Below are positions 3,748-38,042 of a DNA stretch of 41,793 nt, piece by piece. Under the pieces are notes generated by a model. The model saw only the letters and a program-made list of their open reading frames with translations, did no database searches and was not told the origin of the DNA. Source of the stretch: a virus. The translations under genes and the position numbers were made by a program. The stretch is taken from IMG/VR virus record IMGVR_UViG_3300042483_000260, positions 1 through 41,793 of that record. One strand, written 5' to 3'. Numbering within the stretch: the first letter of the stretch is position 1; each line of letters starts with the position of its first letter.

Positions 3748-4770
3748 ATGGACAAAAATTGGGACAGCCTTTCTTCAATCGTTAACGCTGTAAACAAACA
3801 GCATGGCTTAGGTACAATCGTCAAAGGAAGTGATACCAGAGGCAAACTTGGTCGTATCACTACGGGTGTCTTGTCGTATGACTTGATGTTAGGTGGTGGG
3901 TGGCCTGTAAACCAATGGTCTGAAATCATTGGTGATGAGTCATCAGGAAAGACTGCTCTTGCATTTAAGACCATTGCAGAGAATCAAAAGTTAAATCCTG
4001 ACTTTATTGCTGTGTGGGTTGCTGCTGAGGAGTTTGTTCCTGAGTATGCAGAATCCATTGGTGTTGACTTAGATCGTTTGTATGTTGTTGAAACAAACAT
4101 CATGGAGCATGCTTACAACTTAGTTATTAACTTGATGGCACAGCGAGCAGCAGACATGATTGTTATTGACTCTTTGCCAGCGCTTGTTCCTGGAGATGAA
4201 TCAGAGAAGACGATGGACGAATACACCGTAGGTTTAGGTGCTCGCCTTACATCTAAGTTCTTCCGTAAGTCTTCTGAGGCACAGAAGCGGTCTTTGATTG
4301 AGGATGAACGAACATGTACAGGGTTGATGATTAACCAGTGGAGACAAAAGATTGGCGTGATGTGGGGAGACAATCGCACAACACCAGGTGGTCTAGCCAA
4401 GAACTTTGCATACTTTTGCCGTGTTGAGGTACGCCGAGATGAGTGGCTTAAGGATAAAGATGAAGTGGTTGGGCAAACAATTAAGGCTCGCACACTTAAG
4501 AACAAGACTTACCGTCCAAACCAATCAGCAGTGATTGATTTCTATTTTGCTCAGACACAAGGATTTGACATAGGAGACTTTGATGTACTTAAAGACACGA
4601 TCAATATTGGTATCGCTATTGAGGTTATTACTCGTGCTGGGGCTTACTACTCGTTTGGTGAAGGTCGCTGGCAGGGTAAAGAAAAGATGCTTGAAGCGTT
4701 CCGACAAGATGTGGGAATGAAAGATCAGTTAGTTGCTGCTGTTGAGAAGCATTACGGTGTTGCACGGTGA
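3748..4770 (+). CDS. recA: RecA/UvsX-like recombinase
   Basis: 340 residues. This ATPase forms a filament on ssDNA and drives strand exchange in recombination-dependent replication and repair. The Walker A loop is GDESSGKT (residues 62-69). Walker B is the hydrophobic strand ending in D141 (ADMIVIDSLPAL). A TPGG loop with following Asn-Phe (about residue 215) matches the RecA L2 region. The length is close to bacterial RecA, but the sequence is divergent. ATG 3748 follows an AGGAG 8 nt upstream. It ends in a GTGA overlap with the next gene, a candidate nuclease, supporting a recombination module. Confidence 0.92.
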   Translation: MDKNWDSLSSIVNAVNKQHGLGTIVKGSDTRGKLGRITTGVLSYDLMLGGGWPVNQWSEIIGDESSGKTALAFKTIAENQKLNPDFIAVWVAAEEFVPEYAESIGVDLDRLYVVETNIMEHAYNLVINLMAQRAADMIVIDSLPALVPGDESEKTMDEYTVGLGARLTSKFFRKSSEAQKRSLIEDERTCTGLMINQWRQKIGVMWGDNRTTPGGLAKNFAYFCRVEVRRDEWLKDKDEVVGQTIKARTLKNKTYRPNQSAVIDFYFAQTQGFDIGDFDVLKDTINIGIAIEVITRAGAYYSFGEGRWQGKEKMLEAFRQDVGMKDQLVAAVEKHYGVAR

Positions 4771-7780: not shown

Positions 7781-8002
7781 ATGCCATTGACTCACCGATT
7801 AGACGATATTGACGGTCCTTACCTCAATACTAAGGAGTGGAAAGACAAGGGCGCTCGCACATCTACAGGTGGTGGTGGGAAACAACCGCCAAAGAAACCA
7901 CCAACCAAAACAGGTGGTCTTCCAGATAAACCATTTGATTGGAATAGTGATGCTCAACCAATAGATCCAATGGATCCAAATAACAAGATGAGGTGGAAGT
8001 AA
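7781..8002 (+). CDS. Small Pro/Gly-rich protein with a PFDW motif
   Basis: 73 residues. A Gly/Lys/Pro-rich centre is followed by DKPFDWNSDAQPIDP, related to the motif in the preceding gene. No Shine-Dalgarno sequence is evident before ATG 7781; TAATAT ends 7 nt upstream and could be a leaderless -10, although it overlaps the end of the previous gene. The stop overlaps the next start as TAATG. Confidence 0.65.
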   Translation: MPLTHRLDDIDGPYLNTKEWKDKGARTSTGGGGKQPPKKPPTKTGGLPDKPFDWNSDAQPIDPMDPNNKMRWK

Positions 8003-8136
8003 TGGTCGTTATAAAGAAGAAAGTAAAGAAAGAAAAAGTTGTTAAGAAGGAAAAGCCACGCCCTATCACCGCAGTGGCTGGTTCTGCTGGTGGGTTTGTT
8101 ACTACTGCTAATCAAGGTATGGCTGGAAACGTCTAA
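8002..8136 (+). CDS. 44-residue Lys-rich protein
   Basis: ATG 8002 is coupled to the preceding stop (TAATG), and its own TAA (8134-8136) is coupled to the next ATG at 8136. The N-terminal half is strongly basic (a run of Lys and Val) and the C-terminal half is Gly/Ala-rich. It is likely a nucleic-acid-associated or virion microprotein, though no family is recognised. The exact fit between two coupled genes is the main evidence. Confidence 0.6.
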   Translation: MVVIKKKVKKEKVVKKEKPRPITAVAGSAGGFVTTANQGMAGNV

Positions 8137-8582
8137 TGGCTGGTGGTGGTAAGAAAAAGAAAGTTAGTTCTTACCTATCCAGATTACCTAATTACGAACG
8201 TACTAACTTTGATAAAAGCCTAGAAACTAATACCCCATATCAAACAAAGATATGGAATCGTGGGGATACTGTAAGTGTTAAAGCAATTGGGCATATAAGT
8301 CCAGAACAGTTTAAACAATCGTACAAACCAAACATATACCATACTGACTGGGACAAGTTGGACTTACACCCAGACTTTCAGACAAGTGTTGATTACCCCA
8401 TAGATGATCTAGTTTCGTCAATGAAAGAACATGGTGTTGTAAAGCCTGTTATTGCTTTTCGCCAAAATGGTATGATTAGTGATGGTCATCACCGAGCATT
8501 TGCAGCAATAAAGGCTGGTGTGGACATTCCAGTTGTGCATTTTACAGAAGATTTCCCTACGATTAAAGGAAAGGATGACTAG
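8136..8582 (+). CDS. ParB/sulfiredoxin-fold protein
   Basis: 148 residues. The first 80 are basic and unassigned. Residues about 88-138 fit the ParB-like fold: IDDLVSSMKEHGVVKPVIAF, then MISDGHHRAFAAIKAGVDIP. The GHHR motif takes the place of the nucleotide-binding/active-site GxxR of ParB, Srx and Noc. There is no HTH, so it is a stand-alone ParB-fold domain, as found in phage nucleases, kinases and decoys of several kinds. A second ParB-fold protein lies at 31207-31635. It is coupled to neighbours by TAATG on the 5' side and TAGTG on the 3' side. Confidence 0.75.
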   Translation: MAGGGKKKKVSSYLSRLPNYERTNFDKSLETNTPYQTKIWNRGDTVSVKAIGHISPEQFKQSYKPNIYHTDWDKLDLHPDFQTSVDYPIDDLVSSMKEHGVVKPVIAFRQNGMISDGHHRAFAAIKAGVDIPVVHFTEDFPTIKGKDD

Positions 8583-9127: not shown

Positions 9128-10723
9128 GTGGCAGCGAAAGATCCAAATGAATTCAAGTGGAAGCCAGAGGCTACGGCTAAAACATATAAAGATGCCAAAA
9201 AAAGGTATTCTGCCAAAATGAACGATAAGGATAGAGCCAAACTAATGACAGATGTAGCGGCTGCTGGCGGTACCTACAAAGAGTTGTCTGATGAAGAAGT
9301 AGCAGCAAAAGAAAGTGATACTAAGCCACCAACCTCCAAGGAACTAGGAACCGTGCTAAAAGAAACTGGTAAGAAGCCTAAAGCAAAAGCAAAGCCTGCT
9401 GAAATGCCTAAAACAGAAATGAAGCCTAAAGCAAAAGGTGGTGCTTCAAAGGCTACGGAAAAACCTACAGAGCATTCAGACCCTATCGCTGCTGCTGCTG
9501 CAAAAGCAAGAACTAAAAAGTTAACTGAGGACCTTAACAAGCCTGAAGTTAGAACACCATTAACCAAGCCTACTGCTGCTCCTGCCACTACACAAGTTCC
9601 CCGTAGTGATAGTTCAGGCAACACTGTTGACTTGGGTAGGTTTAAGGGCACAAAGAAGATGGATGCTATTACTGATGCAGCAGAAAAAGAAAATCAAGAC
9701 TATTTGAATTCTGATGAAGGAAAGCAAGTAGCCAAAGATTCTGCTGAAGCAAGATCATTGATGAAAGAATCTTCTACAGGGTTTACTCCAGGACCAGGTA
9801 TGTCTGAAGCACAGGCTGCCGAAGGAAAGAGTAAAGCCGAAACAGCACCGATTGCCTTAGATGGTGGTGTAAATATTAGTAAAGGTCCAGAAACTGCATC
9901 AGTAGTTGATGACGATGGTGGTATGCCAAAAGGTAAAAAGTCTGGTGGTCCATACGTCTTGAACACAGATAAGACAGGTAAGGGAACACCAGTAACAGGT
10001 ACAAAGAGCCAAGCAAAAGGTACAGCCGCTATGAATCGCATTCGTAGAGACCGTGACAGTGGCTTGCGTGGGTTTGACCCAACTACAGCACCTGAAGGTC
10101 GTGGTACACCTGGACCTGAATTCCGTGATTGGTCGGATGAAGACGCTGGAATCACTAAGTCAAGCCCAACTGCGAGCGCACCTGCTAAAGGTGGAATGGG
10201 TGCTCGCCTTCGTGGTTTCTTTGGTGGACATGATTCGGCTAAAGGATCACCTTTGCCAACTCCTTCAGCAGGACCAACTCCTTCTACACCAACGGCTGGA
10301 CCTACACCTTCCACATCAACATCATCCCCAATGGCACCTAGTTTCTCACGGTCACAACACTTTCAAGGTGGGCATACCGTAAATCAACAAGGTATGGGTG
10401 GACAAAACTTTAATGCATTTAATGACAATGCAGGTGGTGCATCCCCAGCAAGTAGTGGTAGTGGTTCAATCAATAACAACTACGCCACTATCCAAGCAAA
10501 CACTGGTGATGGCAACACTTATGGCAATGTTAAAGGCGCAACCATTAACAGTGGTCCGACAGTAGCCAGTACAGCAGGTAGGGCTACATCTGCAAATAAG
10601 AATGCAAATGTTCTTTCAACAGGTGGCCCAGCAACACAGACAAACCCAAGAGCACAAAATGCTACAGGTTCTGGTCGCCCAACCACATCTAAGAAAAAGA
10701 ATCCACGAACGGAGAAGCCATAA
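9128..10723 (+). CDS. Long low-complexity protein (Lys/Ala- then Pro/Thr-, then Asn/Gly-rich)
   Basis: 531 residues from GTG 9128, with GAGGAG 8 nt upstream. Residues 1-120 are Lys/Ala-rich with repeated KPKAKAKP-like units; 340-395 are Pro/Thr/Ser-rich (TPSAGPTPS repeats); 400-510 are Asn/Gly/Thr-rich and could form beta-solenoid-like or glue-like structure. The motif VNQQGMGGQNFNAF near residue 420 is shared with the protein at 11980-12798, and the underlying DNA is a 38-bp direct repeat. No enzyme motif is seen. A virion-associated or scaffolding-like role is possible but unproven. Confidence 0.75.
   Translation: MAAKDPNEFKWKPEATAKTYKDAKKRYSAKMNDKDRAKLMTDVAAAGGTYKELSDEEVAAKESDTKPPTSKELGTVLKETGKKPKAKAKPAEMPKTEMKPKAKGGASKATEKPTEHSDPIAAAAAKARTKKLTEDLNKPEVRTPLTKPTAAPATTQVPRSDSSGNTVDLGRFKGTKKMDAITDAAEKENQDYLNSDEGKQVAKDSAEARSLMKESSTGFTPGPGMSEAQAAEGKSKAETAPIALDGGVNISKGPETASVVDDDGGMPKGKKSGGPYVLNTDKTGKGTPVTGTKSQAKGTAAMNRIRRDRDSGLRGFDPTTAPEGRGTPGPEFRDWSDEDAGITKSSPTASAPAKGGMGARLRGFFGGHDSAKGSPLPTPSAGPTPSTPTAGPTPSTSTSSPMAPSFSRSQHFQGGHTVNQQGMGGQNFNAFNDNAGGASPASSGSGSINNNYATIQANTGDGNTYGNVKGATINSGPTVASTAGRATSANKNANVLSTGGPATQTNPRAQNATGSGRPTTSKKKNPRTEKP
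10379..10416 (+). repeat. 38-bp direct repeat, copy 1
   Basis: This copy matches 12343-12380 at 37 of 38 positions. It encodes VNQQGMGGQNFNA in the large low-complexity protein; copy 2 encodes the same motif with Leu for Phe. Near identity at DNA level, including third codon positions, points to recent duplication or gene conversion, since flanking sequence is not conserved. Confidence 0.85.
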
Positions 10724-10974
10724 TGCCTAAAGGTGACGATACTCGTAACCATCCAAAGCGTGGAGTAAGTCGTTATGCGCTTGACATTGCAAATATGGCT
10801 GCAATGACTAGCCCTAGTTATGGCAAGGAAGACTATTGCCCACAGTGTGGAGCAAACGAATCACATGACCAGAATCCAGAAGCACCAGAACATTGGGGCA
10901 ATGACAAAACATCCGATGCTGAAGGCGTACAAGGTATGGATTCAGGATTCAGCGAAACAGAAAAGAGTTACTAA
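10723..10974 (+). CDS. Small protein with GDDTR N-terminus and a CxxC
   Basis: 83 residues. ATG 10723 is coupled to the preceding stop (TAATG) and its stop to the next ATG. The N-terminus MPKGDDTRNHPKRGVS closely resembles that of the next protein (MSRGDDTRHHSNRKVT); the remainder differs. One CPQC pair occurs near residue 39. The tail is acidic. Function is unknown; the shared N-terminus suggests a common binding or sorting signal. Confidence 0.7.
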   Translation: MPKGDDTRNHPKRGVSRYALDIANMAAMTSPSYGKEDYCPQCGANESHDQNPEAPEHWGNDKTSDAEGVQGMDSGFSETEKSY

Positions 10975-11237
10975 TGTCTAGAGGTGACGATACCCGACAT
11001 CATTCAAACCGTAAGGTTACTAAAGAAGCACTAGGTAACAGGTACGCTGAAATCGGTGTTGGTTTTGGTGATGACCCTCGTGTTCAGAAAGCCATTGCCG
11101 AACAACAAGCAATGTGGGGTGGTATTGATGCTGCTGGTATTGCTGAAAATTATTCAGAAGCAGATGAGAATATGCATGAGCCAAACGATGATATTGGTTC
11201 GTATGACGGTCAAGACTACGATGATGGGGGTTACTAA
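10974..11237 (+). CDS. Small acidic protein with GDDTR N-terminus
   Basis: 87 residues, coupled on both sides by TAATG overlaps. The N-terminal 16 residues are paralogous to the previous gene, and the C-terminal 30 residues are very acidic with Asp, Gly and Tyr. No known domain is seen. Confidence 0.7.
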   Translation: MSRGDDTRHHSNRKVTKEALGNRYAEIGVGFGDDPRVQKAIAEQQAMWGGIDAAGIAENYSEADENMHEPNDDIGSYDGQDYDDGGY

Positions 11238-14003: not shown

Positions 14004-14488
14004 TGCTCGTAGTCACCTTTGACGTTTTAGCCTACGCACCAACTGATAAGGCAATGGTTCCAGGCGCAAGACAACCAATACCTGATGGTCAAAAACTGTA
14101 TGAAGCCTTGTATGCAAGGTATCACGGAAGAATGATTATTCTTGGTGGCAGTGACATTGACCCTGACATGCTAAATGCTTGGGCTAAACGAGAAGGTTAT
14201 AAGTTTGCACTTGCAGACACGATCAAAGGAAAAGGACCAACAGCCTTTCGTGACCGTGTTCGTGACTTAAACGCAGTTTACGGAAAGATTGATTGGTTTG
14301 TAGATACCAATCCTGAAACTGTCACGCTTGTAATGCAAGATGCCGTTCCTAGTATTTTAGTCTGCTTACCTAACTTTGTTCGTCCAGAATGGCGAGATAA
14401 TAAGCCCAAAGAGCGCCAGATATGGAGTGATTTGGCACATGAAATTGATGTACAGTCTCTCTACAAAGATGTAGGAGTTTCTGAATGA
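14003..14488 (+). CDS. HAD-like protein, function uncertain
   Basis: 161 residues. The open frame extends 24 codons upstream, but GTG 14003 overlaps the previous TAG and is preferred. VVTFDVLAYAP at the start, a strand MIILGGSD near residue 50, and DWFVDTNPETVTLVM near 105 follow the strand order of HAD-type hydrolases. The canonical DxD catalytic pair is not complete, so it may be inactive or a different Rossmann-like fold. The end (RPEWR, then IWSDL) looks conserved. ATGA coupling to the next gene suggests they act together. Confidence 0.45.
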   Translation: MLVVTFDVLAYAPTDKAMVPGARQPIPDGQKLYEALYARYHGRMIILGGSDIDPDMLNAWAKREGYKFALADTIKGKGPTAFRDRVRDLNAVYGKIDWFVDTNPETVTLVMQDAVPSILVCLPNFVRPEWRDNKPKERQIWSDLAHEIDVQSLYKDVGVSE

Positions 14489-15921
14489 AAGTCTATTTTG
14501 CCAATGCTGAAAAGGCATCCCACAGGTCATTGCTTCAAGCATCGGGTGTCACGCAGTATGCCGTTAATCTTACCCATTTGCCAATTCCTAAGAAAAAGGA
14601 ACTTGATTTATCTGTAATGTTCCCTGCTGGGGAGATTGTCTTGTACACCTCAGAGACTGATGAGGATGTCAGTCGTTATGACGATTTTGTCAGACAACAC
14701 TATGAAAACATTGCAATGGTCATAGGAAGACCCGATTATGACGGTACTTGGCTAGGTGAGCGCTACATTCCTGTATGGAATGACCCAGACGATATGGAAC
14801 GACTTGCGTGGTTATGCCAGAAAAACGGCAGAGCAGCAATCAGTGATAAAGCAGTCAATGGCAAGACAATATCCCGCATTAGAAACCTAATTCAGAGATG
14901 GGATGCCAAATTGATTGGGTTGTCGTCCAAGCCCGATGTGATTGCTTCACTGCCTTGGGATTCAGTAATCGTGGGTTCTTGGACATCTGCCGTTCGCTAT
15001 GGTGAGACTCAGGTTTGGGATGGGCATGGACTACGCCGATACCCAGCCCAGCAAAAGGATTCTGCCCGAAAGAAGCACCGAAACGACATCATCAAACTAG
15101 GTATTGACTATGATGCCATTGTTCAGGATGATAACTCTGAAGTAGCAAGACTTGCAATCGTGTCTTGGCAGGCGTGGGAAAAGACAACTTTTGGGGTCTA
15201 TGAGCCTCAAGAATTGGATGATGAGCAAGAAATTGGTCTATCAGAAAATGTGCAAGATAGCAACTATCTTGACATTTCACCTTCCGTTCCAAATGTGGCT
15301 CCTAGGGGGTCAAGTATTACTATCCGAGGTGCTGAGATGCGGCACGAGGATGACAAAGTATTACTACCTGTCATTGGTATTGAACAATTCACTCCACAAC
15401 TTGCTCAAACCCTTGCTGGTGATGAAGAATCTGAAGAATTAGGCGTTGAAAAGATACCAGTAATTTCCTATAAAGGCAACCTTTTACGCCAATGCAATAG
15501 TTGCTATCTTAGCGCTCGTTGCCCTGCTTTCCGACAAGATTCTGAGTGTGGCTTTAAGTTACCTGTAGAGATTAAAACTAAGGATCAATTACAAGCCGCA
15601 TTGAGGGCAATGTTGGAGATGCAGGTGAGTCGTGTTTTGTTCGCTCGCTTTGCTGAGGAACTAGAAGGACAAGGTCTTGACCCAGCACTTTCAGGTGAAG
15701 TAGACAGACTCTTTAACCTTGTTGAGAAGTTTAGGAACATAAGTGATACACGGGATATGGTTCGCTTAGAAGTAGAGGCTAGGGGCAGTAGTGGGGTACT
15801 TAGTCGTTTGTTTGGTCAGAGTGCTGGAGATGTCACTAGGCAGTTGTCAAGTGGGGGATTAAACGCCCATCAGACCAATACCATGTACCAAGATGTCCTA
15901 GACCTATCGGACGATGCTTGA
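14485..15921 (+). CDS. Predicted TIM-barrel protein (TGT/DpdA-like?) with C-terminal Cys cluster
   Basis: 478 residues. The N-terminal 220 residues alternate strands and helices: VMFPAGEIVLYTS, then MVIGRPD, KLIGLSSKPDV, and PWDSVIVGSWTSAVRYGETQVWD. This rhythm, with a Ser-Trp motif near residue 170 followed by a Lys/Arg-rich loop (KDSARKKHRND), resembles the TIM barrel of tRNA-guanine transglycosylases and phage DpdA, which insert 7-deazaguanines. The match is weak and no catalytic Asp is firmly placed. After an acidic linker, C337, C340, C346 and C355 (CNSCYLSARC...C) could bind zinc or Fe-S, followed by a helical region. No other 7-deazaguanine gene is visible, so the role remains open. 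Confidence 0.4.
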   Translation: MKVYFANAEKASHRSLLQASGVTQYAVNLTHLPIPKKKELDLSVMFPAGEIVLYTSETDEDVSRYDDFVRQHYENIAMVIGRPDYDGTWLGERYIPVWNDPDDMERLAWLCQKNGRAAISDKAVNGKTISRIRNLIQRWDAKLIGLSSKPDVIASLPWDSVIVGSWTSAVRYGETQVWDGHGLRRYPAQQKDSARKKHRNDIIKLGIDYDAIVQDDNSEVARLAIVSWQAWEKTTFGVYEPQELDDEQEIGLSENVQDSNYLDISPSVPNVAPRGSSITIRGAEMRHEDDKVLLPVIGIEQFTPQLAQTLAGDEESEELGVEKIPVISYKGNLLRQCNSCYLSARCPAFRQDSECGFKLPVEIKTKDQLQAALRAMLEMQVSRVLFARFAEELEGQGLDPALSGEVDRLFNLVEKFRNISDTRDMVRLEVEARGSSGVLSRLFGQSAGDVTRQLSSGGLNAHQTNTMYQDVLDLSDDA

Positions 15922-28771: not shown

Positions 28772-28807
28772 TGACCCATGCAATTCAACCAACCGAAGGG
28801 AACAGAT

Positions 28808-30286
28808 ATGACACAGTCAGCACTCACAAATCTCATTCAGCACATGAACAATGTACCGATTGAAAAAACATCGTTGTCAATGCCACCGATGGCAGAACCA
28901 TTAATGCCCCACCAAATCACTGGAGCAGAGTTCGCATTGAAGGAACGAACAGTGTTGATCGCTGATGAGCAAGGTGTCGGTAAGACAGCCACTGCGATTG
29001 CAATCGCAACAGCATCAGTGATCGCTGGCATGACACCAGTGCTCGTGATCGTGCCAGCCACGACACGATTGAACTGGAAGAGTGAGTTCGCGAAGTTCTC
29101 GCCATCAGTGAGCATCGCAACGATCCTCGGCACGAATCCAACCAAGCACAAGATCACTGCATTGCCTGAAGCAGATGTGTTGATCATTGGCGAAGCATCA
29201 GTGCATGGCTGGAAAGAATTGTTGAAGAACAATATTGCTGGAATCATCATTGATGAATGTCATCACATGAAAGGTGGCAAGCGAGCAAAGCGTTCGCAAG
29301 CCACGATTGAAATCGCACAGACAGTTTCGTCATCAGGTGTGCGTGTTGCCATGAGTGGTACACCGTTGATTGCTCGTCCGATGGAATTATTGCCAGTGAT
29401 CCAAATGCTGGATCGTGGAGCAACATTCACTGGTGGCATCAATGGCTTCATCAATCGTTACGCACCGAAGATTGATCCTTACGGCACTCGTGGTGCATCA
29501 CACTTGAAAGAACTCCACGACCTGCTTGCTGGATCATTCATGATTCGCAGACTTCGTGATGAAGTGCTCACACTTCCGAACGCTGGTCGTACACAAGTTT
29601 TGATCGAGATGGATGCGAAGCGTCAAGCCAACTACATCGCTTGCGAAGACAATCTCATTCAGTGGATTCGCAATACCAAAGGCGAGGCTCGTGCTCAGAA
29701 GGCGATGCTCGCTGAAGCACTCGTGCGTATCAACGAACTTCGCCACATCTGTGCAATGGGATCTGTGAAGGCAGTGATCTCATATGTGCAGGACTTGCTG
29801 GACGATGGCGAGCAGGTGTTCATGAGCACGAATCATCGTGATGAAGCCGATGCTTACTTCAATCACTTCTCTGAGTCTGTTCACACTGTCAAGATCGTTG
29901 GGGGCATGAATGACTCAGCGAAGCAGGCGAGCGTGGATGCGTTTCAGAGTGGTGAGGCACGAGTGTTGATCGGCAATGTTGCCAGTGCAGGTGTCGGCAT
30001 CACACTGCACTCAGCACGACACCATGTCTCGTGTTCGTTGCCTTGGGATTCTGCATCACTGAGGCAGGTGGAAGATCGCATCAATCGTTTCGGTCAGAAG
30101 CGTGAAACGATTTCGCACATCATGATCGCTGGCATTGATGGCATGACCACGATGGACGAGAAGATGCTCGCTCTCATTGAAGCGAAGAACAAAGTCATGC
30201 TCGGCGTATTGGACGGAACTGCTGATGACTTGATCTCCGATGACAACGAGTCAATGGTGAAAGCGATCTTGAACTCGTACAACTAA
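28808..30286 (+). CDS. SNF2-like superfamily 2 helicase/translocase
   Basis: 492 residues from ATG 28808, preceded by GAAGGG; ATG 28778 is also in frame but coincides with the predicted transcript start. Motifs in order: LMPHQITGAEFAL (Q-like), DEQGVGKTATA (motif I), IVPATTRLNW (Ia), IIIDECHHMK (motif II, DECH), AMSGTPL (III), IGNVASAGVGITL (V) and QVEDRINRFGQKR (VI). These are complete, so it should be active. It is a short SNF2/SMARCAL1-type protein that would move along DNA to remodel forks or protein-DNA complexes. It has no nuclease domain. Confidence 0.92.
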   Translation: MTQSALTNLIQHMNNVPIEKTSLSMPPMAEPLMPHQITGAEFALKERTVLIADEQGVGKTATAIAIATASVIAGMTPVLVIVPATTRLNWKSEFAKFSPSVSIATILGTNPTKHKITALPEADVLIIGEASVHGWKELLKNNIAGIIIDECHHMKGGKRAKRSQATIEIAQTVSSSGVRVAMSGTPLIARPMELLPVIQMLDRGATFTGGINGFINRYAPKIDPYGTRGASHLKELHDLLAGSFMIRRLRDEVLTLPNAGRTQVLIEMDAKRQANYIACEDNLIQWIRNTKGEARAQKAMLAEALVRINELRHICAMGSVKAVISYVQDLLDDGEQVFMSTNHRDEADAYFNHFSESVHTVKIVGGMNDSAKQASVDAFQSGEARVLIGNVASAGVGITLHSARHHVSCSLPWDSASLRQVEDRINRFGQKRETISHIMIAGIDGMTTMDEKMLALIEAKNKVMLGVLDGTADDLISDDNESMVKAILNSYN

Positions 30287-30347: not shown

Positions 30348-31190
30348 TCGCCCGATGTCATGTTGCCGCATTTCGTCCGATCATCGTGAATAACGCATCA
30401 CTGGATCATCGGAGAGCGATCAGAACGAATGACTTGGTATGAACATGACCAGTGTTTTACGAATGGACAGGCTCGATCAAAACCATTCCGAAGTGAATGA
30501 GTGAAGCCACTGTTTTACATTTGCACCTGCACTTTTATTTCGCCCAGCGAATCACTTCATCACTGCATCACATAGAGATACATGGAGTGAATGTGATGGG
30601 AGATCGTGGAGTGATGATGAGTGAATGACACCGAGATGTGAACACTCGTGACAACGCTGTACCACTGATGACTCACTGCGAATGATGAGTGAATAGCAAT
30701 GATCGGACAGCCAGTACCAGTGCAAATGCTCCCCCTATCCCCCGATGTCTATTCATGCCATTCCAGTAGACCTATTTGTAGGCTGGCATTGGGTTTGCAG
30801 GGTATGAGTGCTGCATTAGCCCCCACGATGCCCTGATATGCCCTTCTCGTGCGTTCTAAGGTGGGTCTATAGAGGGATCATATGAGAATGGGGTAGAGGC
30901 GATATAGACGCTCCTAGAGGCTTACAATGCGTTGTTGAGGGTTCGCTCCATGCTAGGCAAGGGAATCGCCCAAAGTCTCAACCTATCACGGTATCTATAC
31001 AGTCTACATAGAGAGTAGAGGGTTGTCAGTGGGTGAACTCTACAGTGAGGGTTGAGGGTTGAGGGTAGACCCCCCACCCTTAAGTCTCAAGTGAGGGTTG
31101 AGGGTTTGGGAGGGCCTACAACCCAAGGAATGCAAAATGACCAGATAGACCCATTCCAAAAAATTGCACACACACAAATCCGCCCAAATA
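30348..31190. other. 0.8-kb region without recognisable genes; candidate origin/control region
   Basis: No frame here has a convincing start and length on either strand. The left half contains short direct repeats (ATGATGAGTGAAT at 30614-30626 and 30682-30694; TGTTTTAC at about 30454 and 30511). The right half contains a 7-bp unit TGAGGGT three times in tandem (31046-31066), twice more (31092-31105) and once at 30936. It lies between a terminator and a gene block on both strands, and its repeats resemble origin iterons. Unlike the coding blocks it is packed with GTGA/TGAT and GAGGGT words. Confidence 0.6.
31046..31105. repeat. TGAGGGT iteron cluster
   Basis: TGAGGGT occurs at 31046-31052, 31053-31059, 31060-31066, 31092-31098 and 31099-31105, the first three and last two in direct tandem. 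Possible binding site for an initiator or regulator. Confidence 0.65.
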
Positions 31191-31194
31191 GCCC

Positions 31195-31200
31195 TATACT
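31195..31200 (+). promoter_or_regulatory. Leaderless-type -10 (TATACT)
   Basis: Ends exactly 6 nt before ATG 31207, and no Shine-Dalgarno sequence lies between. Confidence 0.55.
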
Positions 31201-31206
31201 TGGTTT

Positions 31207-31635
31207 ATGTCCTTATCTCCACTTCAATTTGGTGATCTCATGCCTAAACTGGAGAAAAGGCATGGAGAAGACTTCTCTGATGTAGTAAATACCCTTGCTC
31301 ATGGGACACTTGGTGACCCAGATGCTGAATCCATTTGGGATCCTGAAAGTTTGCCACTTAGCCGTGGTCGTGTCTTAGTCAGTGATTTACATGCTCCTGA
31401 ACCTATTCGTTCAACATTTAATGATTACGACACCAGAACAAAATCAGCAGCAAGTGGATACAAGAGTAATCCAGCATCTGTCCCCCCTGTGTTACTTGTT
31501 AAACGAGCAGGTGGGTATGAAATCGCTGATGGTCACCACCGTATCGCAGCCGCTAGGTCAATCGGTAAAAAGAGTTTGCCAGCGTGGGTAGTCCATAGCC
31601 CATTGTCAGAACCTCACCCAGGTTTTGACGACTAA
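31207..31635 (+). CDS. ParB-fold protein with LSPxQF N-terminal tag
   Basis: 142 residues. The N-terminus MSLSPLQFGDLMPKL carries a tag shared with other genes in this block. The C-terminal half has VPPVLLVKRAGGYEIADGHHRIAAARSIGKKSLPAWVV, here cited in parts: EIADGHHRIAAA is the ParB/Srx-type motif, as in the protein at 8136-8582. No HTH is present. A ParB-fold domain alone can act as a nuclease, kinase or nucleotide-binding effector; which applies is unknown. It faces the minus-strand GNAT genes. Confidence 0.72.
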   Translation: MSLSPLQFGDLMPKLEKRHGEDFSDVVNTLAHGTLGDPDAESIWDPESLPLSRGRVLVSDLHAPEPIRSTFNDYDTRTKSAASGYKSNPASVPPVLLVKRAGGYEIADGHHRIAAARSIGKKSLPAWVVHSPLSEPHPGFDD

Positions 31636-31651
31636 CTAGCCCTATATAGGC

Positions 31652-31987
31652 TTATTTTATGAATTCAAAGGGAATGCGGGTAGGTACATGCCCACCCACT
31701 GCTTTTGCCCAAACATCACCCTCAGTAGTGCGGTATGGATTATGCATTGGTGAGGCTACATCATCAAACTGTGTAGAGATATGATGAGCATGCTTCCACA
31801 TTCCCGTTGCAATACCCTGTCTACGCATGTTTGGGTCCACATGTACATCCTGTACATGGTTAAAAGTGTCTTCAGGCTCACCATGCCACTCCAAATGCCC
31901 AACTGTCTCATTCCCTAGTTTTGCATTGATCCTATGGGGTATTCGCCTGTCGCCTGGATCGTACTGATATTCCACTGATTTAGTCAC
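31652..31987 (-). CDS. GNAT acetyltransferase (paralogue 1)
   Basis: 111 residues from GTG 31987, which overlaps the stop of the gene ahead (GTGA); the frame's upstream TTG (31999) is less likely. VQDVHVDPNMRRQGIATGMWKHA holds the acetyl-CoA-binding V-x-P...R-R-x-G-I-A-T motif of GNAT enzymes. After it comes the tail RTTEGDVWAKAVGG shared with the two neighbouring GNATs. The target is unknown; it might modify a small molecule or a host protein. Confidence 0.75.
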   Translation of the reverse strand: MTKSVEYQYDPGDRRIPHRINAKLGNETVGHLEWHGEPEDTFNHVQDVHVDPNMRRQGIATGMWKHAHHISTQFDDVASPMHNPYRTTEGDVWAKAVGGHVPTRIPFEFIK

Positions 31988-32361
31988 TCTTCTTCCCAAC
32001 TATGGGTAGTATCTAGGTGTTTACGCTTAGGTACTCGTTTTCCCGTACTTATTGCCCAAGCCTCACCGTCATTGGTCCTATCTGGGGAATGCTCTGGTGG
32101 TTGCACTCCACGAGTGGTTCTAGCCATCTCATGTGCATACCCCCACATTCCAGTGGCTACGCCCTGCCTCCGATGGTTCGCTTCTACGAATAGGTCTGAT
32201 ATGTGGTTATTACCCTTGGAGTACCATTCCAAGTTACCTACATAGTCACCATCGTCTGTTTCAGCAACGACTGTGTGCCTAGTCTCTTTACCGATGGGTG
32301 ATTTAGGGTTACCCTTTTCAAATCGGAATTGGTAACCACTGAGGCTTTCATGTGCTGGCAC
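31984..32361 (-). CDS. GNAT acetyltransferase (paralogue 2) with HES...QFR tag
   Basis: 125 residues from GTG 32361. The N-terminal MPAHESLSGYQFRFEKGNPK resembles the start of the 57-residue gene at 33707-33880. The core ISDLFVEANHRRQGVATGMWGYA is the GNAT motif A, and RTNDGEAWAISTGKRVP is the C-terminal extension shared with the other two. A TATACT 6 nt upstream of the start makes the transcript leaderless. The gene is divergent from paralogue 3. Confidence 0.78.
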   Translation of the reverse strand: MPAHESLSGYQFRFEKGNPKSPIGKETRHTVVAETDDGDYVGNLEWYSKGNNHISDLFVEANHRRQGVATGMWGYAHEMARTTRGVQPPEHSPDRTNDGEAWAISTGKRVPKRKHLDTTHSWEEE

Positions 32362-32367
32362 TTGTCT

Positions 32368-32373
32368 AGTATA
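32368..32373 (-). promoter_or_regulatory. Leaderless-type -10 (TATACT), minus strand
   Basis: Ends 6 nt before GTG 32361, back to back with the TATACT serving 32423. The surrounding sequence resembles 33881-33934. Confidence 0.55.
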
Positions 32374-32410
32374 AACGAAAAATTTGCCGTTGAAGGGGGC
32401 GAAATGCGCC

Positions 32411-32416
32411 TATACT
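32411..32416 (+). promoter_or_regulatory. Leaderless-type -10 (TATACT)
   Basis: Ends 6 nt before ATG 32423. It is divergent with the promoter at 32368-32373, with the two -10 elements 37 nt apart. Confidence 0.55.
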
Positions 32417-32422
32417 TAGTAA

Positions 32423-32791
32423 ATGCTTAACCCCAACCAATTTAAGTTCTTATACCAGCAACACGAAGACACTCATGACCTCAATGTGCTTGGAGAAAAT
32501 GGTTATAGCAGGGGTTGGATGCAGTGGTCAGACAATACAGGGGAACTGCAACACATTATGGTAAACCATGATGCTCGTAGACAAGGTATTGCTACTGCTC
32601 TGTGGAATCGTGCTCAACAACTTTCTGGTGAACGTGGGATTACAGCACCTACACACTCATCAAAGCGTACCAAAGAAGGCGATGCTTGGGCTAAATCAGT
32701 GGGTGGAGAACTTCCTAAGCGTAAGCCTTCCCATTATGATCGTGGTCGCATGGGTGTTGATACTCCCTTTGAGAATTACGAAACCCTCTAG
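32423..32791 (+). CDS. GNAT acetyltransferase (paralogue 3) with LNPxQF tag
   Basis: 122 residues. It starts MLNPNQFKFLYQQ, the tag seen in several proteins of this block. The core LQHIMVNHDARRQGIATALWNRAQ is GNAT motif A, and the tail RTKEGDAWAKSVGGELPKRK is shared with paralogues 1 and 2. It lacks N-terminal strands of large GNATs, so it is a minimal version. It converges on the minus-strand gene ending at 32788, with 4 nt overlap. Confidence 0.78.
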   Translation: MLNPNQFKFLYQQHEDTHDLNVLGENGYSRGWMQWSDNTGELQHIMVNHDARRQGIATALWNRAQQLSGERGITAPTHSSKRTKEGDAWAKSVGGELPKRKPSHYDRGRMGVDTPFENYETL

Positions 32792-33222
32792 GCTCTACCC
32801 CGTATGCGTGGGGTGAATTCACGATCACTGTCATTATTTGAATCCAAATTGAAATCGGTTGCCCCAATGATGTGAACTGGTGTTCCAAGGCGTAGGGGTG
32901 TCTCATGCTCAGACTCAACAGCCCCTTCTCCATAATTAGCCCACTCTTCATGTTCTGCTGAATTTCGGTCCATAATATGTCGTTTATGCACTAATCCAGT
33001 AAGGACAGTACCCTTAATATTTTCTGAATAAACTTCTTCGCCCCATCCCTGTCCAATCTGGTTTGTTGCAAACCTATCTGCTTGCCCTGCATGACTATCA
33101 GCAACCCAATGCACACCCAAGTTACTAGTGTCTATTTCATCATGGTGCACTCCCGCAAAGCCACGATGTAGGCGCACATACTTACCTGATTGGTCTTTAT
33201 TAATATGTTCGTGTGCAGCCAT
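32788..33222 (-). CDS. Unknown protein, possibly ADP-ribosyltransferase-like
   Basis: 144 residues from ATG 33222, TAATG-coupled to the gene ahead; the TTG at 33237 is not needed. YVRLHRGFAGVHHDEIDTSNLGVHWVADSHAGQADRFA resembles the first strands of ART-type folds (H/Y-R-G, then a turn with hydrophobic H-W, and an A-x-x-F-A helix). A catalytic Glu cannot be assigned. I treat it as a candidate only. Confidence 0.4.
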   Translation of the reverse strand: MAAHEHINKDQSGKYVRLHRGFAGVHHDEIDTSNLGVHWVADSHAGQADRFATNQIGQGWGEEVYSENIKGTVLTGLVHKRHIMDRNSAEHEEWANYGEGAVESEHETPLRLGTPVHIIGATDFNLDSNNDSDREFTPRIRGRA

Positions 33223-33707
33223 TACTTGTACTCCCAATAATCAGAATCACCTTCAACAAGTTGTACGTCTGAGTTAGGGTCTTTAGTGTCTGGATTGTGC
33301 CCTAAAAACTGTACCCCTAAATGCTTTACCATTCCTGTTTTTACAAGGTCAGAAGGTATTTGATAAGAAGTGCTTCCTTTATCTTCAATGAGGTTTGTGT
33401 ACTTTTTAGCCCTAGTTCCGACACTTCCAGCGTTCACACGTAATGCACTACTACTGGCTCTAACAGAATTTGATGCAGTAGAAGAAACCCAAGATGGGTC
33501 AAATTGAGGGTCTGTGTAATTCACCATACTTACAACACTTGGGTCTATTTCATATTTATGTATTTCTGCTTGTTTGTTGTTTCGTGGGGACGAAATGTCT
33601 CGTATGCGTTGAGTTGCTGATTTTCTTGTACCAGCATGAAATACACCCTTAGACACTTGGTGTGGCTTTTCTCCAGCCCACGTACCATGATAAACAATTT
33701 CGCCCAC
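33222..33707 (-). CDS. Unknown protein with YHGT start, possibly ART-like
   Basis: 161 residues from GTG 33707, coupled to the preceding gene (TAGTG). It starts EIVYHGTWAGEKPHQVSKGVFHAGTRKSATQRI, a pattern seen in ART/PARP-like folds (YHGT, then FHAGT and a following A-x-x-R helix), and continues with IHKYEIDPSVVSMV. The remainder is Ser-rich and basic. No catalytic Glu is firmly placed. It is coupled to another ART-like candidate on the same strand. Confidence 0.45.
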   Translation of the reverse strand: MGEIVYHGTWAGEKPHQVSKGVFHAGTRKSATQRIRDISSPRNNKQAEIHKYEIDPSVVSMVNYTDPQFDPSWVSSTASNSVRASSSALRVNAGSVGTRAKKYTNLIEDKGSTSYQIPSDLVKTGMVKHLGVQFLGHNPDTKDPNSDVQLVEGDSDYWEYK

Positions 33708-33880
33708 TACTTCTTCCTTGCTTTACGCTTCTCTAGAAGGTATTGTGGGTCACGCCTAGTAAAGCCTGCACTTTGATGTAGGTCGTCTATGTTGACAGCC
33801 TCGCCATCTACATAGGTATGCCCTTTAGGGTTGGTATTAGATTTCCAACGGAATTGGGGGCTTTCATGTCTAGGGTCCAC
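33707..33880 (-). CDS. 57-residue basic protein with HES..QFR tag
   Basis: GTG 33880, preceded at 6 nt by TATACT, encodes MDPRHESPQFRWKSNTNPKG, whose HES...QFR(W/F) and NPK resemble the start of paralogue 2. The rest is basic and ends in a Lys/Arg tail. Its TAG overlaps the next start (33707). It is the first gene of a three-gene minus-strand operon. Confidence 0.6.
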   Translation of the reverse strand: MDPRHESPQFRWKSNTNPKGHTYVDGEAVNIDDLHQSAGFTRRDPQYLLEKRKARKK

Positions 33881-33886
33881 TTGTTA

Positions 33887-33892
33887 AGTATA
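33887..33892 (-). promoter_or_regulatory. Leaderless-type -10 (TATACT), minus strand
   Basis: Ends 6 nt before GTG 33880. The adjoining TTGT-AGTATAAA-GAAAAATT pattern is shared with the divergent promoter at 32362-32400. Confidence 0.55.
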
Positions 33893-33922
33893 AATGAAAA
33901 ATTCATGGTGTGAAGGACAATG

Positions 33923-33928
33923 TATAAT
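33923..33928 (+). promoter_or_regulatory. Leaderless-type -10 (TATAAT)
   Basis: Ends 6 nt before ATG 33935. Divergent from the promoter at 33887-33892. Confidence 0.6.
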
Positions 33929-33934
33929 TAACCA

Positions 33935-34354
33935 ATGAAAGCACTTAACCAGTATCAATTCAATGAGTGGCGACCACACATCTATGAAGAGACTGCGACA
34001 TATGGTGCTCCTGGTATGTCTGAAAACACAATGGTAGAGATGTACAAGCGTGGAGAAGGTGACCGTGTGCACGATTCTCTAACAACAGAGAAAACTGGTA
34101 AGTATACTTTTGAATGGCATAACCCTGCTAGGAAAGAAGTTATTGATAGTAGGAATATGTTTCCCCGAACTAACAATTCAGGATTCTCTTCACACAGAGA
34201 AGCACACAATGCCGCTATGGACTTTATGCTAGATAGGGCTGGTACTCCTGATGACCTCAGTACAACAGATGGTTCCGTAATGTATGAAGGTATGTCTTCT
34301 CGTTGGGAAAATTTCCACAGAAACCAAGGTCATACTATTAGATATGAGGATTAA
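33935..34354 (+). CDS. Unknown protein with LNQxQF-type N-terminus
   Basis: 139 residues. It starts MKALNQYQFNEWRP, close to the L-N-P-x-Q-F tag of neighbours. The rest is polar: YTFEWHNPARKEVIDS and a helical AHNAAMDFMLDRAG. No family is recognised. Coupled by TAATG to the next tagged gene. Confidence 0.7.
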   Translation: MKALNQYQFNEWRPHIYEETATYGAPGMSENTMVEMYKRGEGDRVHDSLTTEKTGKYTFEWHNPARKEVIDSRNMFPRTNNSGFSSHREAHNAAMDFMLDRAGTPDDLSTTDGSVMYEGMSSRWENFHRNQGHTIRYED

Positions 34355-34869
34355 TGGCTCTTAACCCTGAACAATTCTACATTGAGCATGAAGAGCATTC
34401 TCCGTTGGAAAATACTTACCCTGGCAGGTCACAAATCAGAAGGCTTGTAGTTCGCCACCCCGATGTAACCCCAACGGAATACCCATTAGCAGAAACTACC
34501 AATACCGTAATGGGTGGTAGGGGAAGTAAAGGAAAAACAAGAAAAGTAAAGACCCCAGGTGCTGGTCCTAATGCTGCTGGAATGGTGGACTATGAGACAA
34601 GTGGTGGCGGAGATGGCGTTTACATCCGCTACATAAAATCTGGTGTGCCTAACGAAGGAATACCTAGACGAGCCGTAGATGCCATAGTTGAGAAGCATAA
34701 CCCTACTGGTATCAACTTTGGCAAAATCATAACCCCAAAAGTGGTGGATGTTATGCGTAGTGCCTCACAACGACACCCAAACATTAGTGTCTATGGTCAT
34801 CGTGACTTTGGTCGTGACAACGGTGGTTTTGGACCAATTAGGTTCAGTGGTGGCAAAGAAGTAGAATAG
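34354..34869 (+). CDS. Unknown protein with LNPxQF tag
   Basis: 171 residues, TAATG-coupled upstream. It starts MALNPEQFYIEHEEHSP; the middle is a Gly/Lys-rich basic loop (GGRGSKGKTRKVKTPGAG), and the end has VDVMRSASQRHPNISVYGHRDFGR, which could be a small alpha/beta domain. No enzyme motif is clear. Confidence 0.7.
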   Translation: MALNPEQFYIEHEEHSPLENTYPGRSQIRRLVVRHPDVTPTEYPLAETTNTVMGGRGSKGKTRKVKTPGAGPNAAGMVDYETSGGGDGVYIRYIKSGVPNEGIPRRAVDAIVEKHNPTGINFGKIITPKVVDVMRSASQRHPNISVYGHRDFGRDNGGFGPIRFSGGKEVE

Positions 34870-35480
34870 TGGCTAAGCACGTTACAGATATTCCTAAACC
34901 ATTTTATTGCTATGTACAGAATGAGTTTTTGTATAATTTTGAGAAAGGGTTTGGGGAATATACAGCCTGCTTAGTTTATGGGCTTTCTGCAATACCTAAC
35001 AGGGCATGGGGTGTATCCCTGCTTCTAGAGAATGGTGCTTTAGTACAACATGTGCCCCTCCATGCTCTAACTTTCCATACTTCTGCCGTACATCAACACC
35101 CTCTAGACCACCTACAGGTATGGAGTTGTTACGGGCAAGATTTCACTACTCATGAATACAGTGCTTTGTCTGAACTAGCCGTGAAGGTATACATGAAAGA
35201 AGGAGTATGGGAAACGGGCAGATATATGTTTACTGCCGCCCCTTACGGGGATATGTACTCATCAACCCCTGATCAGCACAAACACTTTAACTTCGTGCGT
35301 TTAGACTGTGGTCGTGTGGGTGCATGGCCTGGTAACCGCATGCTTGTGTTTGATGAGTCTTTTGTCAAATTGTCAGAAGAGCGCCCAAAATACATTACAA
35401 ACACTAAAATCTGGTATCCAGAAGGATTAGATGTATCTGACCCCTTTGACACAGTTATCTCTTCAGATACTTCCTTGTAA
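34869..35480 (+). CDS. Unknown protein
   Basis: 203 residues from GTG 34869, overlapping the preceding TAG (TAGTG). It is aromatic-rich and probably beta-rich: ACLVYGLSAIPNRAWGVSLLLENG in its first third, then YMFTAAPYGDMYSS and NKFNFVRLDCGRVGAWPGN-like segments. No tag is present. No family is recognised, although the even composition suggests a folded protein. Confidence 0.68.
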   Translation: MAKHVTDIPKPFYCYVQNEFLYNFEKGFGEYTACLVYGLSAIPNRAWGVSLLLENGALVQHVPLHALTFHTSAVHQHPLDHLQVWSCYGQDFTTHEYSALSELAVKVYMKEGVWETGRYMFTAAPYGDMYSSTPDQHKHFNFVRLDCGRVGAWPGNRMLVFDESFVKLSEERPKYITNTKIWYPEGLDVSDPFDTVISSDTSL

Positions 35481-35706: not shown

Positions 35707-36993
35707 ATGCCTAACCTTGGAGAACAGTTTAACAACACCTACTTTGCAGGTGATGACAATACAACCCCATATGAAGATGACCACCAATATGGACAAGTTT
35801 CACGAAACACCCGCTCGGAACACCCACAAGGTTTACTCTTTCACCCAGACACTGCAACACAATCTCGTGATGACCCAATGTACTCAATGGATCAACGAGT
35901 AAGAGATATAGGGGAAGTGACAGATGATGTCTCCTCCAATCCCAACAAAATTGCGAATTGGGGCAACACAGTTTTAGCAAATGCAGTAGCGTCTACCAAT
36001 CTTTCAACACCTATGCTAAAAAATAAACCAATAAAAATTGAAGGAATGCGTAGCACTGTTAAGGCTGGTTATTTTTCTCCTGGGGAACAAAAACTGGTGA
36101 TAAATAGACAGGACCAGTATGGGAATAATGTTTCTGCCCACGATATAGCATCTACGTTTACACATGAATGGGGGCACAAAGAAGATCAAGACAACTTAAC
36201 TGCTCAAGGTGCTAGAACACAAATGTATAAAGGTAAGTTATTGGGGTACCGAGAAATAGAAAATGCTAGGTCAAGCACTAAGGGTGCAACTGTTACTTCT
36301 CCTGTAATGGAGGGTGTTGCAGATGGGTACAAAGATAGATTTGGAACAATAAAGGAATATAATAGCGGTGACGAAGTAACCGAAAGATATTTGAACCCTG
36401 TTGAAAATGCTGACCGACATCTTGATTTTACAGAACAAGGTAGCACTGCTCAAGGGTACGGTATAAATTTTAAAGGATGGCGAGATAAACACGAACAAGC
36501 GCTATACGCAGCAACTAGGTTACATGTTTCTATGCATGGCAGGGCTGGTATTGAGTCCCTTCCAGATATGGATGCTCTTGCAGACAAGCACCTGACAGCA
36601 TTAAAGCAAGAACATCTTGCTAAGAAAACTGGTAAACCAGCAGCATCAAACGCAAAATATGCAAATACTGCCAGACACCTTTATTTGGGTCAAATGATGG
36701 AAGACCATCCGCATGTACGTGAAGGTTTAAAACAACTGGGTCTTGGTGATGTTGGTGAATACTCTCGGGCTGTCCACGCACACTACACCGCACCTTTGCC
36801 ACCAAAAGAACAAAGTACCCTTCCTGGTTTTGAGAAACTTGCCCCAACTGCACCACCATTGCCTAAGAGTGCAAAGTTTACCCGTACCGATCCTGTTGCA
36901 GTAAGACAACAGGAAAGAAAAGAACAAGCAAAGAACAGTAAGCCAGGAATTGTAAGAGGAAAAGATGGAAGCCTCTCAATTAGGTTGTTCTAA
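35707..36993 (+). CDS. Gluzincin-like zinc metallopeptidase
   Basis: 428 residues. The N-terminus MPNLGEQFNNTYF loosely resembles the L-x-x-x-Q-F tag of this block. H153-E-W-G-H157 is the HExxH zinc motif, in STFTHEWGHKED. E202-G-V-A-D206 is an ExxxD motif 45 residues on, as in gluzincins, where the Glu is the third zinc ligand. The C-terminal third is Pro/Lys-rich (LPPKEQSTLPGFEK, then basic) and probably disordered. It could cut phage or host proteins; no signal peptide is seen, so it would act in the cytoplasm or, if packaged, be injected. Confidence 0.7.
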   Translation: MPNLGEQFNNTYFAGDDNTTPYEDDHQYGQVSRNTRSEHPQGLLFHPDTATQSRDDPMYSMDQRVRDIGEVTDDVSSNPNKIANWGNTVLANAVASTNLSTPMLKNKPIKIEGMRSTVKAGYFSPGEQKLVINRQDQYGNNVSAHDIASTFTHEWGHKEDQDNLTAQGARTQMYKGKLLGYREIENARSSTKGATVTSPVMEGVADGYKDRFGTIKEYNSGDEVTERYLNPVENADRHLDFTEQGSTAQGYGINFKGWRDKHEQALYAATRLHVSMHGRAGIESLPDMDALADKHLTALKQEHLAKKTGKPAASNAKYANTARHLYLGQMMEDHPHVREGLKQLGLGDVGEYSRAVHAHYTAPLPPKEQSTLPGFEKLAPTAPPLPKSAKFTRTDPVAVRQQERKEQAKNSKPGIVRGKDGSLSIRLF

Positions 36994-37742: not shown

Positions 37743-38042
37743 GTGAGCACCGAAGATAACTTAAACTGGGAGCAACATTCCCTTACTGAAGACCATGTTA
37801 GGTCGCTGACTACTGATAAGCCTTTTCGTGAAATGCTCTCTAGGGTCAGTCAAGGCAGCACTCCTGTAATGGGGCATAGAACTGGCAGTGGACATATTCA
37901 GTTGCGTATCAAAGGTGACGGAGTTGTTCATATGGCTAGTACGCCCTCAGACCACCGTGCGGTTAAAAACATGGAAAGTCTGGTTCGTAGGAAGATGGTT
38001 GAAATCGGTCATGATTTTCCAAGAAGGAAAAAAGGTCAGTAG
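37743..38042 (+). CDS. Small basic protein, possibly dsRBD/HicA-like fold
   Basis: 99 residues from GTG 37743. GSGHIQLRIKGDGVVHMASTPSDHRAVKNMESLVRRKM, in part, has the order of short HicA-like or dsRBD-like folds: a strand with a His, a turn, then a helix with SDxRAxxN and a basic end. The PSDHRA motif is one I associate with small actinobacterial and phage proteins. No toxin partner is visible. Weak assignment. Confidence 0.5.
   Translation: MSTEDNLNWEQHSLTEDHVRSLTTDKPFREMLSRVSQGSTPVMGHRTGSGHIQLRIKGDGVVHMASTPSDHRAVKNMESLVRRKMVEIGHDFPRRKKGQ

Follow-up and report, generated by a model that had tools for sequence, protein, structure and literature searches.

Introduction

The nearest described precedents for the phage locus reported here are the targeting sequences of the T4 internal proteins, the mobile promoter cassettes of T4 and the polyvalent proteins. 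T4 Alt is an injected ADP-ribosyltransferase. In T4-like phages, a short N-terminal sequence is found on unrelated, fast-changing bodies and has been reviewed as a means of loading varied proteins (PMC9026906); the internal proteins of T4 counter host defences (PMC9391042). As described in PMC4503421, the promoter early stem-loops (PeSLs) of T4-type phages are short, repeated intergenic promoter elements associated with the shuffling of small genes. The polyvalent proteins of phages and conjugative elements carry ART, GNAT, ParB-like and zincin domains and are thought to be injected early (PMC5512222). Leaderless genes, whose TA-like −10 signal lies some 12 bp ahead of the start codon, are common in Actinobacteria (PMC3160421).

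The locus analysed here resembles each of these in part. As with the capsid targeting sequence of T4 IPI–III and Alt, a short N-terminal sequence, or tag, is common to otherwise unrelated proteins (about 30 body clusters); the likeness is, however, one of design, the phage family is a different one, there are many more bodies per genome, and packaging is here a prediction. As with the PeSLs, a short promoter element recurs before different genes (modules A and B below) and genes are exchanged at it, several of the seven gene gains, losses or replacements that we describe having joints in a module or a tag. Set against the PeSLs as so described, the spacers studied here differ in having neither stem-loop nor terminator, and the promoter differs in being leaderless, as predicted, and fused to the start codon, with exchange homology that runs on into the coding tag. 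The domain repertoire of the polyvalent proteins (ART, GNAT, ParB-like, zincin) is also that of the tagged locus, but each domain is here a separate small tagged protein rather than part of one multidomain polypeptide. The position of the −10 hexamer, about 12 nt from the start, recalls the leaderless genes of Actinobacteria, with the difference that such starts are here concentrated in one phage locus instead of being genome-wide. We consider it probable that this is a modular effector locus in which interchangeable tagged enzyme cassettes are reshuffled by way of promoter modules, the tag being tentatively read as a virion address.

Results and Discussion

Genomic setting

The window, that is, the whole stretch of DNA analysed, is the 41,793-nt (41.8-kb) IMG/VR virus record IMGVR_UViG_3300042483_000260, positions 1–41,793. 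The gene calls and the regular expression for the tag were home-made. The small-gene block holding the two spacers of interest is flanked by a helicase gene (28778–30286) and by tail-fibre-like genes (from about 38 kb). With the ferredoxin-like gene at 34869 as the query, 36 loci were retrieved from IMG/VR. Relatives from this database have the same locus between helicase and tail-fibre genes, and several contigs differ in its content. One 97-kb relative, G004, was read over its full length. Profiles identified its MCP, portal and terminase together with an HslV-like protein, and one gene was judged by eye to be tail-sheath-like. Among cultured phages, G004 comes closest to BRock and LuckySocke (about 60% in the MCP and about 47% in the terminase), two Streptomyces phages that have contractile-tail genes. 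We regard the tagged phages as a myophage family distantly related to BRock; an actinobacterial host would be consistent with the kinship to BRock and LuckySocke and with the leaderless signal. At the DNA level, the first 25 kb of the window gave no match to cultured phages, and a search for bacterial genomes carrying the helicase, as a clue to the host, found none. Positions 14485–15921 of the window hold a queuine tRNA-ribosyltransferase-like gene (phrog_887, 7e-37), a homologue of BRock gp36.

The two spacers

Spacer 1 (32362–32422, 61 nt) and spacer 2 (33881–33934, 54 nt) each carry back-to-back −10 boxes, exactly where an earlier note on this DNA had placed them. All four start codons lie exactly 6 nt past a TATAmT −10 box: the plus starts read TATACT-N6-ATG in copy 1 and TATAAT-N6-ATG in copy 2, and the minus starts read TATACT-N6-GTG in both. 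Two more window genes, at 31207 and 35707, also start 6 nt past TATAmT. The claim that the spacers share sequence proved correct. The 23-mer TTGTNNAGTATAAANGAAAAATT is common to both and occurs in the window in these two copies, to which a tolerance of up to three mismatches adds none (shuffled sequences are expected to give none), and the local alignment of one spacer with the other scores 18 against a mean of 7.3 (s.d. 1.3) for shuffles, of which 0 of 2000 scored as high.

The aligned block of 36 columns (36 nt) runs from a CCTTCA box, which precedes the minus −10 box by 17/18 nt, as far as the GTG at which the minus gene starts; it is therefore the minus-strand promoter. The TGAAGG that had been noticed earlier is indeed present in each spacer, but it is this same box read on the plus strand and belongs to the minus promoter, not to the plus arm. 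The mobile minus promoter, termed module A, spans 32362–32396 on the minus strand in copy 1 (CCTTCA at 32391–32396, TATACT at 32368–32373 and 6 nt to the GTG at 32361) and 33881–33916 on the same strand in copy 2 (CCTTCA at 33911–33916, TATACT at 33887–33892 and 6 nt to the GTG at 33880). The plus arms, with predicted leaderless promoters at 32411–32422 and 33923–33934 (both plus strand), have only the −10 hexamer in common and align best when out of register.

Genes of the locus

On the minus side of spacer 1 lies the gene of a tagged GNAT (VPAHESLSGYQF; 31984–32361, minus strand; Pfam PF13673, 1.3e-6), which has an orthologue in an operon of L039 and is followed downstream by an untagged GNAT acetyltransferase gene (31652–31999, minus strand; PF00583, 4.3e-6). 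The plus-side gene encodes a second tagged GNAT, beginning MLNPNQF (32423–32791, plus strand; PF00583, 1.4e-6). A relative of the window GNAT sits within a 751-aa protein of Mycobacterium phage Tonenili. The AlphaFold model of the tagged GNAT is weak, with low confidence at residues 1–5, and in it the QF of the tag runs into the first strand. Between the spacers, 32788–33222 (minus strand) encodes a tagged protein, MAAHEHINKDQ, which is possibly ADP-ribosyltransferase-like from a sequence pattern recognised by eye; the longer reading frame, 32788–33237, gave zero Pfam matches. The untagged gene at 33222–33707 (minus strand) is predicted to encode an ART/RES-fold enzyme. A sequence search of the PDB with this ART returned nothing, but the fold search with its AlphaFold model (pLDDT 71) gave MbcT (6fkg) and ParT (6d0h) as the best PDB folds, with probabilities of 1.00 and 0.96 and an E value of 2.4e-3 at best. 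Directly upstream of the ART gene, and adjoining spacer 2, is the gene of a 57-aa tagged protein, VDPRHESPQF (33707–33880, minus strand); the two may constitute a toxin-like enzyme with its partner. In L008, an orphan 14-aa tag reading frame (MAAHEYINPDQQTR and a stop; 4094–4160, minus strand) stands directly before an untagged ART gene. Untagged genes thus occur within the locus, examples being those at 31652 and 33222.

Beyond spacer 2 on the plus strand are two tagged genes with no body assignment, MKALNQYQF (33935–34354), which has a homologue at L009:10630–11040, and MALNPEQF (34354–34869), present, among the loci read, in the window only. They are followed by the ferredoxin-like gene (34869–35480, 203 aa, phrog_3704), which is named ferredoxin or PurM in other phages and is strongly conserved beside the cargo in near relatives. 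A tagged zincin-like gene, MPNLGEQF, with the motif HEWGH (35707–36993, plus strand), has its own predicted leaderless promoter and 68% identical relatives, and a conserved small protein (37743–38042, plus strand) shows in its sequence a tag-like start, EDNLNWEQH. On the other side of spacer 1, 31207–31635 (plus strand) encodes a tagged protein beginning MSLSPLQF, the body of which has ParB-like matches in PHROGs.

Promoter modules before differing genes

Across IMG/VR, the exact 23-mer TTGTNNAGTATAAANGAAAAATT gave 0 matches, but degenerate modules did match. Module A reads GCCCTTTCAACGGCAAATTTTT followed by TATAmT-N6-start and module B reads CAAATAGCCCTATACT-N6-start; each stands before various genes. 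In the window, module B is the predicted leaderless promoter at 31185–31206 (plus strand), preceding the ATG at 31207, and it is also found before many gene starts in IMG/VR. When all IMG/VR contigs were scanned by promoter sequence alone, mostly tagged genes with many differing bodies were recovered, so that further copies with other gene bodies, the check that had been proposed, are indeed present in relatives. In these scans, module B precedes MQDKVSIDQF, MPEYTFQYG, MPARNNLNNYQF, MPAQEHLSGQL, MASSEHLSQQF, MSLSNHQF and others, and module A precedes VDPRHES, MAAHENISEYQF, MPAHENLGDQF, MAAKDSLHPQQF and others. Among the loci read, module B is found at 13 different gene starts, which represent about 11 bodies, and module A at nine, nearly all of them tagged. 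The window copy-2 gene, VDPRHES, lies behind a textbook module A in L102, which links spacer copy 2 to the same module. The copy-1 promoter together with the first three or so codons of the window GNAT is 95% identical over 43 nt to a stretch of L009 upstream of an unrelated gene, VPAREYVNKGQF, and the tag DNA of the window copy-1 gene matches another L009 gene, 0.8 kb away.

Some 45 promoters have the form TATAmT-N6-start, which places the −10 hexamer some 12 nt ahead of the start. Such starts make up 6/17 in the cargo region of the window against 0/60 elsewhere (p = 5e-5) and 5/19 against 1/134 in G004, as called by a program that favours TATA-led starts with a bonus applied equally across the genome. 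The idea that CCTTCA is a fixed −35 box was rejected as a general rule because in relatives the distance of the upstream element is not constant. The AACGGCAAATTTTT element was likewise rejected as a stem-loop or terminator: the upstream element folds weakly in the reading direction of the module (−0.1 to −5.6 kcal/mol), it drew no terminator call, and no terminator-like site was found in either spacer.

How did the two spacers come to be alike? The earlier note had proposed the duplication of an entire divergent cassette (tag, back-to-back promoters, tag) and the replacement of both bodies, a reading that the same layout and common block of two divergent spacers 1.5 kb apart would suggest. 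The similarity is limited to the minus promoter and the plus arms are out of register, so that no such duplicated cassette is to be recognised. Moreover, the plus gene opposite the same minus module in L008 and L009 is yet another, unrelated one, the ferredoxin-like gene, and a homologue of the copy-2 plus gene stands alone in L009 behind the ferredoxin-like gene; together, these indicate that the arms moved separately. Duplication of the whole cassette is largely refuted, and we regard it as highly improbable. The block could instead be the promoter consensus of the phage, kept alike by selection or by a phage-specific regulator with no duplication at all. TATAmT and the 6-nt spacing are common to all of these promoters, and host RNA polymerase would impose both, but most cargo promoters of the same phage are dissimilar beyond the −10 box, whereas the similarity within modules A and B reaches 20–45 nt, in module A at a varying distance from the start (38–51 nt), and copies of module B that precede different genes remain near-identical a long way upstream (ATCCGACCGACCACCC...). 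A mere consensus accordingly seems improbable, and the origin that we favour is the movement of promoter modules.

A common tag on unrelated bodies

The HES tags on the minus arms and the L-N tags on the plus arms, as reported earlier, are present, but they are not two kinds, since relatives carry the fused form (MAAHEHLNPEQ, MAAHESLSGYQF, MPAHENLGDQF and MAAKDHLNWDQH). The tag is approximately M-[AP]-A-H-E-x-[LIV]-N-x-x-Q-F, of which HES and LNxxQF are the two halves; the majority consensus over 45 representative cargo proteins is MxAxxxLNxxQF. The 129 tagged proteins fall into 42 body clusters, or about 30 families without small or near-identical leftovers. Their bodies are mutually unrelated (GNAT, ADP-ribosyltransferase-like, ParB-like, methyltransferase, zincin), the Pfam matches among them being GNAT, ParB_N, PARP, Arr-ms, methyltransferase and YunG-like. 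They range from about 50 to 260 aa, with zincins of up to 545 aa, and none has several disparate domain hits. Tags are carried by 7/17 genes in the cargo region of the window against 2/60 elsewhere, and by 9/19 against 2/134 in G004.

The dialect of the tag tracks the genome and not the body. HE is present in 29 of about 60 tags of one genome set and in 0/23 in G006–G008, an absence that extends to body families common to both sets; this fits either a lineage-specific receptor or homogenisation by recombination. The tag is absent from the cultured relatives BRock and LuckySocke. A look-alike start in BRock gp37 was rejected as a tag, the protein having no similarity to tagged proteins.

Gene exchange between close genomes

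Two near-identical genome pairs differ by seven whole-gene gains, losses or replacements, four between L008 and L009 (about 98% identical around the locus) and three between L036 and L057 (one involving two genes); gain and loss are interchangeable in this account, as neither genome of a pair is taken to be ancestral. Read base by base, the breakpoints fall at the −10 box, the start codon or the tag. Between L008 and L009, MAKEHMQ is lost, with two promoters joined at a common CTATACTTGA; the insertion of MKPLNEYQF falls at the promoter/start codon; a GNAT takes the place of an ART, with the joint at (TA)ATG; and one ART is gained. Between L036 and L057, the loss of a GNAT passes through TAATGGCAGCACATGA, 16 nt of identical tag DNA, and leaves an ART with the chimeric tag MAAHESLSG/TQF; behind one module A, two genes have been exchanged; and MPAHEYVNKGQF is lost at ATGCCAGC. 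Clear homology is present at only some of the joints, namely those at module A, the −10 box and the 16-nt tag stretch. Exchange across comparably short homology, 2–10 bp, is described in T4 (PMC9391042). Selection for intact genes also predicts joints at start codons, so the weight rests on those inside modules and tags.

The repeated modules, the common tag on unrelated bodies and the swaps with joints at the −10 box, start codon or tag are features of the DNA itself, and a modular locus with mobile, predicted leaderless promoters, in which tag and promoter DNA provide the exchange homology, is well supported. The swapping of cargo suggested by the earlier note is borne out: promoter modules stand before differing bodies, and close genome pairs exchange genes at them.

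Proposed mechanism and role of the tag

In the mechanism that we propose, small single-domain enzymes would serve as interchangeable cassettes, each with the same N-terminal tag. Some would owe their expression to a short leaderless promoter module joined directly to the start codon, others to translation coupled with that of the preceding gene. The tag DNA and the few recurring modules would place short homology ahead of every gene, and recombination there would remove, insert or re-pair bodies with expression and tag preserved. The two spacers hold two copies of module A before two different tagged minus-strand genes. The tag would load the proteins into the virion, leading to their injection as early anti-defence or host-modifying enzymes in the manner of the T4 internal proteins and Alt. 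The predicted elements of this scheme are the start of transcripts without a leader, the route of recombination, the packaging of the proteins into the virion, their injection and the targets of the enzymes. Weighing against it are the untagged genes within the locus, the tagless nearest cultured relatives, BRock and LuckySocke, and the failure to find a T4-type prohead protease among the structural proteins of G004 that were scanned.

That the tag sends proteins into the virion for injection is the leading, if tentative, reading of its role. It leads because the body types and the proximity of tail genes match proposed injected proteins and because the design of the tag is like that of the T4 capsid targeting sequence. 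Were the tag instead a cytoplasmic address, binding a phage or host partner such as a degradation, membrane or replication-site factor, the enzymes would be made de novo early; the predicted leaderless −10 promoters resemble those of the host sigma type and could fire at once, and a genome-bound tag dialect suits any trans-acting partner. Against this stand the adjoining tail-fibre genes and tagged zincin and a domain set matching that of proteins argued to be packaged (PMC5512222), although neither point is decisive, and we consider a cytoplasmic address less probable. It is scarcely credible that leaderless translation gives rise to the tag incidentally, its first codons being constrained for initiation efficiency. 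Many tagged genes do have predicted leaderless promoters, but many others are promoterless and start at TA/ATG overlaps within operons, and the tag residues are conserved although their codons vary.

Returning to packaging, we think it possible that the tag is a new virion-loading signal by which about ten injected enzymes would be packaged, in a changing set, and that the DNA of the address doubles as the recombination handle for reshuffling. If the tag is a packaging signal, it would be a second protein-loading tag besides that of T4, and the injected proteins of a set of uncultured phages could be recognised from their sequences alone. Even without packaging, the tag marks about 30 small phage protein families, many of which lack an assigned function, as one functional class that is likely host-directed. 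The locus offers a testable picture of how fast-changing effectors may be kept, with a fixed address and fixed promoter modules and the bodies exchanged between them.

Among ten structural-region proteins of G004 that were scanned, no T4-type prohead protease was found; an MCP, a portal, TerL and an HslV-like protein were seen. The last of these, an HslV/proteasome-like Ntn hydrolase (L042:5609–6244, minus strand; PF00227, 3.5e-8; phrog_1040), is encoded next to the portal, and none is annotated in BRock. It could be a substitute for the prohead protease.

A second N-terminal motif, approximately M[PS][KRG]G[KED]DTRHHxNR, occurs at 10723–11237 of the window and at 60939–61847 of G004 (L045), on two to four consecutive small genes whose bodies differ. 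In an unrelated phage, L003, GNAT and HAD-like genes (919–1858 and 7854–8327) carry another common tag, M[GS]RNNxDF, placing the same body type under a different address.
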